Assembly (NCBI RefSeq): GCF_007750395.1
Contig: NZ_CP036281.1
Coordinates: forward strand, 6,037,001 to 6,101,000
Direction of reading: 5' to 3'
Length of the DNA: 64,000 nucleotides
Source: Polystyrenella longa
GTDB lineage: Bacteria; Planctomycetota; Planctomycetia; Planctomycetales; Planctomycetaceae
Under the pieces are notes generated by a model. It saw only the letters and a program-made list of their open reading frames with translations. It did no database searches and was not told where the DNA came from. This document shows positions 34,000 through 57,921 of the stretch, in pieces. The position numbers were made by a program, and so were the translations under genes. The first letter of the stretch is position 1. Every line of letters starts with the position of its first letter.

Positions 34000-34599
34000 A
34001 TGTCAGCTTCTCAAAGTCGAACCGCTACGATCAAACGCGCTACGGCGGAAACCCGCATCGAGTTAACATTAGATCTCGATGGCACGGGAAAAGCCGATAT
34101 TCAAACTGGAGTGGGGTTCTTTGACCATATGCTGAACTTGTTTGCTAAACATGGGTTGTTCGATCTTTCGATCAAAGCCGATGGCGATCTTGAAGTCGAT
34201 CAGCATCACACTGTTGAAGATGTGGGTATCTGTCTCGGGCAAGCACTGCTCAAAGCGGTAGGGGACAAACAGGGTATCACTCGTTATGGCAGCATGACGT
34301 TACCCATGGAAGAAACTCTGGTGACTTCGGCACTCGATTTGAGTGGTCGCATGTGGTTTGTGTATAACGTCAGTTTTCCCACCGAGAAAATTGGTGAGTT
34401 CGATTCACAACTCGTGCGCGAGTTCTGGCAGTCGGTTTCTTCGAACGCTTTGATGAACCTGCACCTGGTCTTGCAGCACGGCGAGAACAGTCATCACATC
34501 TCTGAAGGGATCTTCAAGGCAACTGCTCGCGCTTTACGACAGGCAGTGACGGTTGACCCTCGCCAGACGGGTGTCCCTTCTTCCAAGGGAACCTTGTAA
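34000..34599 (+). CDS. hisB: Imidazoleglycerol-phosphate dehydratase
   Basis: This is a 199-residue dehydratase of histidine synthesis, one step before HisC. Motifs seen are [43 protein letters not shown], and [23 protein letters not shown], which carry the manganese-binding His and Glu residues. Length is that of a stand-alone IGPD, not the bifunctional HisB of enterobacteria. The start is the ATG at 34000 ([13 protein letters not shown]); the open frame extends upstream to 33823 but with no family similarity. It is downstream of hisC by 236 nt, and two alternative hairpins lie just before the start. Confidence 0.94.
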
Positions 34600-35576
34600 G
34601 CTCAAAAACGGCCTCGGATAATTGCAATCGCATTACACTATGTCGTTACAGAGTCGTAACAATGTCGCCGCGATGAACTGGCTGTTTGCATGAGATGGAG
34701 CAGGTGTTTCTAAGCAGTGATTGAGAAATATATTTTTCGTTCTCATTTCGGTTGCAAGAAAATTATATCCGGGTATGGTAGACCTATAACATTGATGTGA
34801 AATTCATTTCCCCTTCACATTCGCTGTGTACTTATCTGGCAGGCCTTCAATCTACGTGTGACCTGTCGAGTACTTCCTGCTTACAAAGTCAGTGCGTAAA
34901 AAAACTGAAGCGTTGGCAAAACCTGTTCGAACTGCTGAGCACAGTAACAGGATTCCTGATCAATTCGTGTTCACTCCTGGAAGCGTTAACTTTCGTCTGA
35001 CGCTGGTTCCGAAGAAACAACCACTTGTTATCTCTGCGATGAAATTGCGCGCGGTTCACAGTTTTTGAATCCGTGCACAACCATTGAATCGCCGTTAGCG
35101 ACTGGTGGTCGATTTGGGTTCCGGCAATAAGTGGGCGGGAAGAGTTACGCCAATTCGTTACATAGAGTGACACTATTGGAAACGGGCTTGAAACCCTCTG
35201 ATGGGTTACAATCACCCTTATATGATGGGCTTTGAAACAGCCGCAACTGGGCTTCAGGATGTAGCTTAGTTGAAAAGGTCCTTGTAGACGGATTTGCGGG
35301 GGCCAGCTTGAATCGTTAACGATTCACTGGGGAAACTGATCGAACTACCTGACTTTTGCCAATAGGGACGGTGACAGGGAGAACTCACAGGCCATAATGA
35401 CTATGGTCACCAGAGTCTCTTTTGGCTCGTGACGGATGCGAGAAGTAGGTGTGGTGCTGCCTTGGTGAATCAAGAGCGTTTTCGGGTTCGATCAGTTTCT
35501 CTTTTTTACTTTCTAGCGGGTCGCAATCAGGCACGCTGCCCAATTGCCGCTCTCTGTTCCGCATCTCTTCGGATAC
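34600..35576. other. Long gene-free region (977 nt) between hisB and ribD
   Basis: The stretch lies between the ends of convergent genes and contains no convincing ORF. From 34600 to about 35220 it is A/T-richer and shows only short hairpins, for example GTTAC/GTAAC near 34646 and TGAGAA/TTCTCA near 34722-34746. From about 35250 to 35415 there is much stronger structure, listed separately. The 3' side toward 35576 has a T-rich tract (TCTCTTTTTTAC near 35500). A convergent gap would normally be short, so its length itself suggests a non-coding function or a decayed gene. Confidence 0.5.
35254..35411 (+). ncRNA. Candidate structured RNA, family not recognised
   Basis: On the plus strand TCAG-GAT-GTAG (35254-35264) can pair with CTACCTGA (35345-35352) with a bulge, closing a domain. 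Inside it CCAG (35303-35306) and CTGG (35327-35330) flank a perfect 16-nt palindrome GAATCGTTAACGATTC (35310-35325). A second domain pairs GGTGAC (35370-35375) with GTCACC (35406-35411) and contains an alternative CCATA/TATGG hairpin. AGAGTCTCTTTT follows. It does not match tmRNA, RNase P, SRP, 6S or the riboswitches I know by eye. The structure is seen; existence of a transcript is inferred, and strand is uncertain because hairpins fold on both. Confidence 0.3.
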
Positions 35577-36686
35577 TTACGGTCGCTGCAATCGACCCCG
35601 CAAGTAGATGTCGTCGCCCGTTATCTCGATCTGAATATCGCGTAGATCAGCTTGTTGAGGAATCGCGGGAAGCCCTTCACCTTCGAGCGGGGTAATCGCG
35701 TCTCTTCCGCCTACCAGCTTGGGGGCAAGAAAGAGATGAACTTCATCAATAGCAGACACTTCGTGAAGTGACGCAAAGATTGCACCGCCTCCTTCGACGA
35801 GTACATTCGTCATTTCCCGTCGCCCCAGTTCCAACAGGACTTCGTTCCAATCGAGACGGCCTTCTTCCGTAAGCTTGCCCTGCCAGATATCGACGCCTGC
35901 GTCTCGAAGCTGTTTCAGCTTTTCAGCTGGCGCTGATTCCGAAGTACAGAGCAAGACAGGGGCCTGAGTAATCGTCTGAACCAACTGAGAATCGAGAGAC
36001 AGACTGGCACGGCTGTCGATCACAATGCGAGTGGCCGTGCGTGGTCCCGCAGGTCGGGCTGTCAGTAACGGATCATCAGCAGCGACGGTTCCTGCCCCAA
36101 CCAGGACACCGTCCATACAGCCTCGCAATTGATGGACGATGGAGCGCGATTCTGGTCCAGAGATCCATTGAGAGGATCCGGTCCGGGCGGCCAGTTTACC
36201 GTCCCAGGTCATCGCCCATTTCGCGAGCAGGTATGGCTGTTTGGTGGTAACCTGTTTAATAAAAGGAGCATTCAGCTGTCGAGCTTCTTCACCCAGAAGA
36301 CCCACTTCGACTTCGATCCCCGCCTGTTTGAGTTGAGCGATCCCTTTGCCTGCGACCCACTCTGCGGGATCTTCCTGGGCAATGACGACGCGGGATATAC
36401 CGGCCTGAATGACGGCCTCAGCACAGGGGCCTGTCTTTCCCTGATGGCAACAGGGTTCTAAGGTTACGTATAACGTCGCCCCTCTGGCAGCATCGCCTGC
36501 CTGACGTAGAGCGTTGATTTCGGCATGGGCTTCGCCATACTTTTCGTGATAACCGGCACCCAGCAGATTCAGTCCATCGTCAACAATGACCGAGCCCACC
36601 GCTGGATTCGGCTCGACGTATCCGAGCCCCTTTTGGGCCAGATTGATCGCGTATTGCATGACTTGGGTGGGGTTGTCGAATTTCAT
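35577..36686 (-). CDS. ribD: Bifunctional riboflavin biosynthesis deaminase/reductase
   Basis: This is a 369-residue protein for the second and third steps of riboflavin synthesis. The N-terminal deaminase domain (about residues 1-145) has the zinc motifs AHAEINAL and PCCHQGKTGPC. The C-terminal reductase domain (about 150-365) has WAMTWDGKLAARTG, QWISGPESR, DGVLVGAGTVAADDP, and VEGGGAIFASL. Length and motif order are normal. The start ATG is at 36686. No FMN riboswitch is visible upstream. It is followed by nothing on the same strand until hisB's convergent end, 977 nt away. Confidence 0.95.
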   Translation of the reverse strand: MKFDNPTQVMQYAINLAQKGLGYVEPNPAVGSVIVDDGLNLLGAGYHEKYGEAHAEINALRQAGDAARGATLYVTLEPCCHQGKTGPCAEAVIQAGISRVVIAQEDPAEWVAGKGIAQLKQAGIEVEVGLLGEEARQLNAPFIKQVTTKQPYLLAKWAMTWDGKLAARTGSSQWISGPESRSIVHQLRGCMDGVLVGAGTVAADDPLLTARPAGPRTATRIVIDSRASLSLDSQLVQTITQAPVLLCTSESAPAEKLKQLRDAGVDIWQGKLTEEGRLDWNEVLLELGRREMTNVLVEGGGAIFASLHEVSAIDEVHLFLAPKLVGGRDAITPLEGEGLPAIPQQADLRDIQIEITGDDIYLRGRLQRP

Positions 36687-56508: not shown

Positions 56509-57552
56509 CTACTCTGAGCCATCATCTAAACTGTCGCGCCATTGGGCGAGGTGTTCGAGACAGATGGCGGTGCCGCGGGCAACCGTAGTGAGGGGGTCTT
56601 CCGTGACGCGGGCGGGGATGCCCAGTTGTTCGTTCATGAATCGATCGAGTCCGGTCAGCAGCGCACCACCACCAGTGAGGACCACCCCTTGATCCGCCAA
56701 GTCAGCGACGAGTTCTGGTTTACATTGTTCGATGACGTTCTTCATGCAGTTCAGGATCGATTCCAACGGACTACGTAATGATTCGCGGACCTGTTCGCTG
56801 GTAACAACCGCTTTACGGGGAACACCGCTGATCGTATCGAGCCCACTGACTTCCATGTTCAATTCCCGATCGAGCGGGTAGGCGCTACCAATGTTGATTT
56901 TGATTTGTTCGGCTGTCTGTACACCGATTCGCATGGAGAATTTCTGTCGCAAGTAGTCGACGATGGCGACATCCATTTCATCACCCGCGAGACGAATCGA
57001 TTTTCCGACGACAATATCACCCAGAGAGAGAATGGCCACTTCCGTGGTACCACCGCCGATATCGCAAACCATGCTGGCCATCGGTTCTGAGATGGGCAGT
57101 CCGGCACCAATGCTGGCCGCTCTGGATTCATCAAGTAGGAACACACGTCCCGCTCCAGCGCGTTCAGCACTGTTGAAGACGGCTCGTTTTTCCACAGGAG
57201 TAATTCCACCTGGAACCGCAATCACGACGCGCGGTTTCAGCCCCATTTTCTGATGGCTCGCCTTTTCGATGAAGTAACGAAGCATCGCTTCGCACAGTTC
57301 AAAGTCAGTGATCACGCCATCCTGCAAGGGGCGGACGGCTGTGATGGAGTCGGGCGTTCGTCCCAGCATTTGTCGGGCGAGTTTCCCGACGGCGGTACCG
57401 CGACCGAGAACTTCGCGGGTACCCTTCTGCAGGGCAACTACGGAGGGTTCATTCACCATGATCCCTCGCCCCTGTCGGGCCACGAGTGTATTGGCTGTCC
57501 CTAGATCGATAGCGAGATCGGGGCAGAGATATTGTTTAACGCGATTCAGCAT
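56509..57552 (-). CDS. mreB: Actin-like cell-shape protein MreB
   Basis: This is a 347-residue actin homologue that forms membrane-associated filaments guiding sidewall synthesis. ATP-binding motifs seen are LAIDLGTANTLVARQG (phosphate 1), CDIGGGTTEVAILSLG (phosphate 2), LTGGGALLTGLDRFM (adenosine), and PLQDGVITDFELCEAML. The connect region reads LLDESRAASIGAG where MreBs usually have EEPMAAAIGAG, so the P-M pair is replaced by S-R; the second acidic residue and the IGAG part are kept. The start ATG is at 57552. It is the first gene of mreB-mreC-mreD-PBP2. Confidence 0.95.
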   Translation of the reverse strand: MLNRVKQYLCPDLAIDLGTANTLVARQGRGIMVNEPSVVALQKGTREVLGRGTAVGKLARQMLGRTPDSITAVRPLQDGVITDFELCEAMLRYFIEKASHQKMGLKPRVVIAVPGGITPVEKRAVFNSAERAGAGRVFLLDESRAASIGAGLPISEPMASMVCDIGGGTTEVAILSLGDIVVGKSIRLAGDEMDVAIVDYLRQKFSMRIGVQTAEQIKINIGSAYPLDRELNMEVSGLDTISGVPRKAVVTSEQVRESLRSPLESILNCMKNVIEQCKPELVADLADQGVVLTGGGALLTGLDRFMNEQLGIPARVTEDPLTTVARGTAICLEHLAQWRDSLDDGSE

Positions 57553-57608
57553 CCGTGCTTACTCACTTAAGTCGTTTATGTTCCACAGATTCGACTGAAT
57601 CCGGGTGC

Positions 57609-57766
57609 CACGGCTAGCTCGACTAGCCGTGCGGGAACAGAGTTCGGGATCGAACGCTCCGACAGAAATTCATTCCATGAATCTGTCGAGAACTTTTTCA
57701 GATGACCTGTTGAACTCTGAAAGAGTGATTGCATTCACTTAGGCACGACTAGACGAGCTAGCCGTG
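57609..57766. repeat. Inverted pair of palindromic CACGGCTAG units (MITE-like)
   Basis: CACGGCTAG-N5-CTAGCCGTG (57609-57631) is a perfect 9-bp hairpin. CACGACTAG-N5-CTAGCCGTG (57744-57766) is a second, nearly perfect hairpin in opposite orientation. Both are flanked by GTGCC- or GGTCC-like ends. Between them is a further hairpin built on CGACAG...CTGTCG (about 57659-57689). The whole is about 158 bp and sits in the 369-nt gap upstream of mreB and downstream of the bestrophin-like gene. It has no ORF, so it would be a non-autonomous element. Confidence 0.65.
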
Positions 57767-57921
57767 GTCCTCTGTTGAAGGGGGCGCAAGTTGACTGTCC
57801 GGCAGGATTTGCCGGAGGGATGTTGTACTCGATACCCGAAAACAGAGCAAGATGGGGTTTGCTTGAGACTTCTCGAACAAGACGAGGAGTTAATCACCGA
57901 TACCCATTACCTATTAACGAC

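Follow-up and report, generated by a model that had tools for sequence, protein, structure and literature searches.

The stretch of DNA analysed here, referred to as the window, comprises 64,000 nt of the Polystyrenella longa genome (positions 6037001-6101000 of a single contig of 6,125,480 bases, genome G000). The genome of P. longa Pla110 is reported under accession CP036281 with 6,125,480 bp and a G+C content of 50.3% (PMC7716846). In the window, hisB on the forward strand ends at 34599 and ribD on the reverse strand ends at 35577, leaving 977 nt between two convergent genes, and an earlier note on this DNA had correctly described this gap as free of genes. The longest frame with an ATG, GTG or TTG start that lies wholly within the gap encodes 108 aa, and no Pfam match at E <= 0.1 was found in the five that were scanned of the six gap-overlapping frames of at least 50 aa. 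Two further genomes of the genus, G001 (78% complete) and G002 (65% complete), were compared with P. longa. The content of the gap is two unrelated things, a MITE-like repeat and a candidate small RNA, arranged between the flanking genes as follows.

34000-34599, forward strand: hisB, imidazoleglycerol-phosphate dehydratase, upstream flank (open reading frame; Pfam PF00475, E 3.6e-64)
35177-35268, strand not assigned: MITE-like repeat of about 92 bp, with related copies in G000, G001 and G002
35282-35508, forward strand: conserved part of the candidate small RNA (matched by blastn in the same hisB-ribD gap of G002, E 5.4e-23; RNAalifold z -4.93)
35577-36686, reverse strand: ribD, convergent downstream flank (Pfam RibD_C, E 4e-46, and a deaminase domain)

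The distance between hisB and ribD is 728 nt in G002 and 20 nt in G001 (L141, 2101-2120). The absence of the interval in G001 was read directly at the locus and does not stem from a missing contig. Within this one genus, the whole hisB-ribD interval is present in two of the three species and absent from the third. A DNA search with the whole gap against 59 genomes, in which the best 8 matches per genome were scored, returned two kinds of match: the repeat block, and the segment 35305-35519, which was matched once, in the same gap of G002 (E 2.1e-22). A 26-nt match of the same search in G043 (E 0.007) was taken as chance. The 0.57 kb upstream of the repeat aligned with G002 at 57.5% identity, a level also seen among 20 shuffled controls (52-59%). 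The earlier note had called the entire gap a structured kilobase, and this description holds for the last third only: the segment 35220-35515 folded with z -4.14 and none of 200 dinucleotide shuffles was as good, whereas 34600-35220 gave z -0.62, with 5 of 20 shuffles equally good. As a separate observation, a weak match was seen between 34733-34824 and L002 1133-1223 (69.6% over 92 nt, E 0.005), a placement that the whole-gap alignment did not reproduce.

The recurring repeat block is about 60-90 nt long and was found in G000, G001 and G002; G024 gave a single weaker match (best 8 matches per genome scored). The family has imperfect terminal inverted repeats with a 10-bp core, CCTGAAACCC/GGGTTTCAGG, and both orientations were found. 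Copies with perfect 10-bp ends number 7 in G000, 11 in G001 and 2 in G002, and the reversed-pattern control gave none. The ends of the copy in the window are imperfect, its core ends being CTTGAAACCC (35187-35196) and GGGCTTCAGG (35249-35258); TA is present at its right flank (35267-35268) and TG stands where the left TA would be expected. Among 16 distinct copies, TA was observed at the left flank in 10, at the right flank in 9 and at both in 6, which suggests, without proving it, a TA target duplication of the repeat. The copy is absent from the corresponding place in G002. This bears on a closing stem formed by TCAG and CTGA that had been drawn from the window sequence. All the strings named at that time are present (TCAGGATGTAG at 35254-35264, CTACCTGA at 35345-35352, GGTGAC at 35370-35375 and GTCACC at 35406-35411), but the 5' arm of the closing stem belongs to the repeat, and the stem is not conserved.

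The candidate small RNA is identical between P. longa and G002 at 163 of 216 aligned positions (75.5%; 73-75.5% across comparisons), and the DNA identities of the flanking genes between the same two genomes are 76.5% for hisB and 66% for ribD. The following elements, all on the forward strand, were assigned to it.

35282-35299: H1, a 6-bp hairpin with the hexaloop ACGGAT (35288-35293), the form of a CsrA/RsmE high-affinity site
35309-35326: H2, the hairpin TGAATC-GTTAAC-GATTCA, noted earlier as a palindrome; the stem is identical and the loop changed in G002
35329-35345: 5' arm of the closing helix P1
35356-35374: H3, a hairpin with a 9-nt loop containing AGGGA; two of its five pairs vary and none is broken, and it seldom formed in single-sequence sampling
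35379-35419: P4, GAG/CTC around a variable stretch, with only 3 invariant pairs
35426-35442: H5, CUCGU-GACGGAU-GCGAG, carrying a second ACGGA loop; in G002 the stem is identical and the last base of the loop differs
35445-35460: H6, a hairpin with the loop GUGUGGUG; one U-G/C-G change keeps the pairing
35486-35502: 3' arm of the closing helix P1
35502-35507: T tract after P1, proposed to act in intrinsic termination, CTTCTTTA in G002

The strongest feature of the gap, which the earlier note did not mention, is P1. Its perfect 14-nt inverted arms (35332-35345 and 35486-35499) lie 140 nt apart, and the helix reaches 17 pairs when a G-U extension is included. The T tract directly 3' of it reads TTTTTT in the window, in line with the T-rich end reported before, and TTCTTT in G002. 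In the whole window, only two perfect 14-nt inverted pairs with arms at most 200 nt apart were found, P1 among them.

The other pair, at 57608-57767, extends into a long foldback located in the upstream leader of mreB (56509-57552, reverse strand). It folded with z -6.4 for 57590-57790 on the forward strand and with z -7.5 for 57480-57790 on the reverse strand, and no exact 13-nt match to it was found among the 173 loci searched. It may represent a leader with a regulatory role, or else a foldback element. When at most 2 mismatches are allowed, GGCTAGCTCGTC is found 10 times in the window, where 3.7 occurrences would be expected.

In both species, none of 200 shuffles was as good as the single-sequence fold of the P1-closed RNA (z -4.2 for the window and -3.7 for G002). 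After removal of the P1 arms, the inner part was no better than shuffles (z -0.29 for the window and +0.90 for G002), and therefore the fold signal of the P1-closed RNA is due to P1. RNAalifold, applied to the two-sequence alignment in which one gap, in H1, was placed by hand, draws H1, H2, P1, H3, P4, H5 and H6 with z -4.93, and none of 200 column shuffles was as good. The 5' part with H1 and H2 alone gave z -2.96 (1 of 200 as good), and the P1 interior alone gave z +0.56 (140 of 200 as good). The consensus fold is better than shuffles, and it is carried by P1 and H1/H2. Between P. longa and G002, 41 of the 51 pairs are identical, 9 are changed on one side, 1 is changed on both sides and none is broken, while the two sequences differ at 46 of 119 unpaired columns and at 11 of 102 paired columns. 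The zero count of broken pairs is partly the result of selection, since the structure was written with both sequences in view. Covariation is thin, because P1 varies at only 2 of its 17 pairs, each time on one side, and only two sequences carry the RNA.

The helices originally drawn for this gap fared less well than the idea behind them. The proposed GGTGAC/GTCACC stem is not kept in G002, where GGCGAC stands opposite CTGGCC. The 16-nt palindrome GAATCGTTAACGATTC (35310-35325) is indeed perfect in the window, where only two perfect 16-nt palindromes exist, but it is imperfect in G002, though the hairpin stem is kept. When stem conservation in relatives was checked, as the earlier note had proposed, it was, apart from this hairpin, other helices that were conserved, with 10 of 51 pairs varying and none broken in two sequences. 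The proposal of a new non-coding RNA itself held up, in that the RNA has no Rfam match and is conserved in the corresponding gap of a second species; however, the conserved part spans about 230 nt instead of a kilobase, the helices are not the ones drawn, and about 90 bp of the gap belong to the unrelated MITE-like repeat.

No Rfam family matched at gathering scores anywhere in the window, which agrees with the earlier statement that no known RNA family could be recognised. At E <= 10, the region 34500-35700 gave three matches only, all to unrelated families, with E values of 3.3-9.4 and scores below the gathering scores. As candidates, tmRNA, RNase P RNA and SRP RNA were rejected, as copies over the cut-off are present elsewhere in G000, at 2869618, 4789035 and 1228020, respectively. 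The RNA could also be a very divergent 6S RNA, given that its size and closing helix are similar and that no 6S RNA was detected in the three genus genomes. We consider this highly improbable: the 6S model RF00013 did not match the RNA, although the same model matched 6 of 14 control genomes, 4 of them over the cut-off, and the RNA is absent from the G001 locus. The 6S RNA is shaped as one rod with a central bubble, whereas the RNA described here has a long closing helix around several hairpins.

To follow the RNA beyond the genus, we used DNA searches and a covariance model, R1, derived from the G000 and G002 sequences; in both kinds of search, only the top candidates of a permissive first screen are scored, and a diverged copy could escape it. 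In 150 genomes of the family, a DNA search with the RNA only gave no convincing match beyond the G000 and G002 loci, with 104 of the 150 genomes having something at E <= 1. The other matches listed were short (about 16-40 nt), with E >= 0.003, many of them on the stretch around GGGTTCGATC, and they were taken as chance; this stretch appears to us to resemble a tRNA T-arm. The R1 model was convincing in G000 and G002 only among 170 family genomes (best 16 candidates per genome, stricter filters). Matches in three other genomes were rejected: that in G104 (E <= 0.1) lies inside a 603-aa frame, that in G003 (E <= 0.1) is a bare 40-nt hairpin, and that in G081 is of full length but has many broken pairs, with E 0.04 for one genome. 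Among 397 genomes of the class, R1 returned G000 and the rejected G104 match only (best 6 candidates per genome; G002 was not in the results). No R1 match was found within 1.5 kb downstream of hisB in the six nearest named hisB neighbourhoods (L053-L058 of 80), and viral contigs searched with one exact pattern gave no match.

Within the genus, the hisB DNA of G001 is closer to that of the window than the hisB DNA of G002 is (81% vs 76.5%), and G001 has no R1 match (best 16 candidates per genome scored). Since this closer relative has a gap of 20 nt and no model match, the RNA is dispensable or has moved. Because the convincing matches are confined to G000 and G002, we do not take it for a core RNA but for one that is young, evolves fast or is often lost. 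The presence in some species and absence in another would also be expected of a DNA-level element, such as a mobile element ending in 14-nt inverted repeats, and perfect inverted arms 140 nt apart as well as an adjoining MITE-like repeat are in keeping with it. But R1 matched just once in each of G000 and G002 (best 16 candidates per genome scored), the interior is conserved between species while the upstream sequence is not, and no match was found among 50,697 phage and 72,556 plasmid records, and we regard such an element as improbable. We instead favor, as the probable reading, a conserved small RNA restricted to the genus, whatever its mechanism. In the two sequences, the locus combines non-coding sequence with conserved structure, as a stand-alone small RNA does, with the P1 interior no better than shuffles.

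In the proposed arrangement, the last third of the gap would be a small-RNA gene on the forward strand with a predicted transcript of about 230 nt or longer. The transcript would end where the 17-bp P1 meets the T tract (about 35507), P1 thus serving both to close the RNA and as the terminator stem, and the two short hairpins H1 and H2 would stand 5' of P1. Transcription, the RNA ends and termination by P1 and the T tract are inferred from sequence. A promoter scan gave 2 sites where 1.2 were expected; the first coincides with the stop codon of hisB and the second falls within the RNA. The terminator rule of the scan accepts loops of 3-8 nt only, and P1 could not be listed by it.

The RNA might instead be the 3' end of the hisB operon transcript, that is, a long 3' UTR with a structured terminator that is perhaps processed to a small RNA, and not a gene transcribed from its own promoter. 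In both species it shares the strand of hisB, for which the T tract that follows P1 would be a natural stop, the consensus scan showed no clear promoter, and in the window the repeat element lies directly upstream of the RNA. However, 683 nt separate hisB from H1 and align at the level of shuffled sequence, G001 does without the interval, and a plain terminator needs no conserved loops in H1, H3, H5 and H6. We therefore hold the 3' UTR origin to be rather unlikely, and keep a stand-alone small RNA as the preferred reading. That the locus encodes a small protein is hardly credible. Short frames do exist, those wholly inside the RNA in the window being at most 42 aa and longer ones running out of it. 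Still, the frames of at least 12 codons that the RNA contains entirely, two each in G000 and G002, show no correspondence between the species, and the frames scanned had no Pfam match. Together with insertions and deletions of 1, 2, 3 and 5 nt between G000 and G002, the lack of a corresponding frame argues for the non-coding character of the locus.

A clue to the function may lie in H1. According to PMC4005645, the high-affinity site of CsrA/RsmE is a hexaloop ANGGAX directly atop a stem. In the window H1 reads UUGUAG-ACGGAU-UUGCGG, and its counterpart in G002 reads CCGUGG-ACGGAC-UCACGG; the two differ at four of the six pairs, at one of them on both sides, and all still pair, while only the last base of the loop differs. 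The window contains 531 ANGGAN sites when both strands are counted, and H1 is one of the 3 that sit on a stem of at least 6 pairs. Although the ANGGA motif was chosen after seeing the sequence, ANGGA was placed in hairpin loops far more often than in shuffled sequences, with values of 1.17 vs 0.11 (sd 0.24) for the window and 1.49 vs 0.17 (sd 0.29) for G002, and 0 of 400 shuffles as high in each case. This excess is mostly due to H1 in both species. The other ANGGA loops reached 0.04-0.08 in single-sequence sampling of the window, and the two conserved ones reached 0.13 and 0.37 in G002. The value of 1.17 was attained by 5 of 1064 windows of the 64 kb, this locus among the five, and is unusual but not unique. 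The number of GGA motifs was not raised, being 5 vs 7.4 in shuffles for the window (380 of 400 shuffles had as many) and 7 vs 8.4 for G002 (333 of 400).

Proteins that could bind such a site are encoded in all three genomes, as CsrA-family matches over the Pfam cut-off number 10 in G000, 8 in G002 and 6 in G001. One of the ten in G000 is partial (34 bits), and the best-scoring ones lie at chromosome positions 4381446, 5174989, 5824828 and 4263103. Ten of the 24 matches, 4 of the 10 in G000 among them, were read as proteins; the pattern used to find them already requires a CsrA-like start. Several of them also contain the stretch HREEVYEAI, whose R we take to be R44. Residues L4 and R44 of CsrA are given as RNA-binding residues in PMC7652899. 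FliW, the protein antagonist of CsrA, was detected in none of the three genus genomes, and the same search matched 2 of 14 controls.

On this basis, the RNA would bind at least one CsrA-family protein through H1, with its hexaloop ACGGAY directly on the stem, and weaker contacts might be made through the ANGGA loops of H3 and H5. The outcome would be either titration of CsrA by the RNA or regulation of the RNA by CsrA. A CsrA-linked function is the single most likely mechanism, but it is itself tentative, and it is closely followed by base pairing with mRNAs and then by the 3' UTR product described above. In the base-pairing case, a genuine small RNA would pair with mRNAs through conserved single-stranded stretches and the ANGGA loop would be incidental; this reading competes with the CsrA step alone. 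In its favor, some unpaired stretches away from the ANGGA loops are conserved, the H6 loop GUGYGGUG being one, and the GGA number is not raised. On the other hand, H1 has retained its loop across stem changes that preserve the pairing, which points to a bound loop, even if the bound partner could still be an RNA. We thus view base pairing as possible and place it below CsrA binding, which we retain as our working mechanism. A more specific version, in which this is a CsrA-binding planctomycete small RNA that acts as a sponge with a single or few sites on a long closing helix and evolved independently of CsrB/RsmZ, is rather doubtful in our estimate.

We see in this locus a candidate new family of small RNA, ordinary in kind but for one unusual clue, the CsrA-type loop. 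Small RNAs of planctomycetes are scarcely catalogued; the survey table in PMC9029176 gives 8 distinct small RNAs for the whole PVC group vs 345 for Proteobacteria. In the openly licensed literature, titles and the openings of abstracts contained no description of this RNA or of any CsrA-binding planctomycete RNA. The candidate is conserved and well bounded and sits in a cultured, completely sequenced species. If it does bind CsrA, it would offer a handle on the control of the ten CsrA-family matches in a genome in which FliW was not detected.

Compared with known systems, the repeat at 35177-35268 resembles MITEs in its size of about 90 bp, its terminal inverted repeats, its dispersed copies and the TA often found at its flanks, but only 6 of 16 copies have TA on both sides, and the copies are diverged. 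Like 6S RNA (RF00013), the candidate would be a free-standing RNA with a length near 200 nt and a closing helix, and it differs from 6S RNA in the lack of a model match and in its multi-hairpin interior. With CsrB and RsmZ it would share predicted stem-loops with ANGGA loops, one of them a hexaloop directly on a stem as in the rule given in PMC4005645 and two more drawn in the consensus structure only, together with a terminator-like 3' end and a genome that encodes several members of the CsrA family. For RsmZ, PMC4005645 gives eight GGA motifs within 127 nt, and 22 GGA motifs are stated for CsrB in PMC7652899, whereas the candidate RNA has 5 GGA in 241 nt, 4 of them ANGGA and one firmly in a hairpin loop. 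Unlike these gammaproteobacterial RNAs, it also has a long closing helix, belongs to a different phylum and has no Rfam match.
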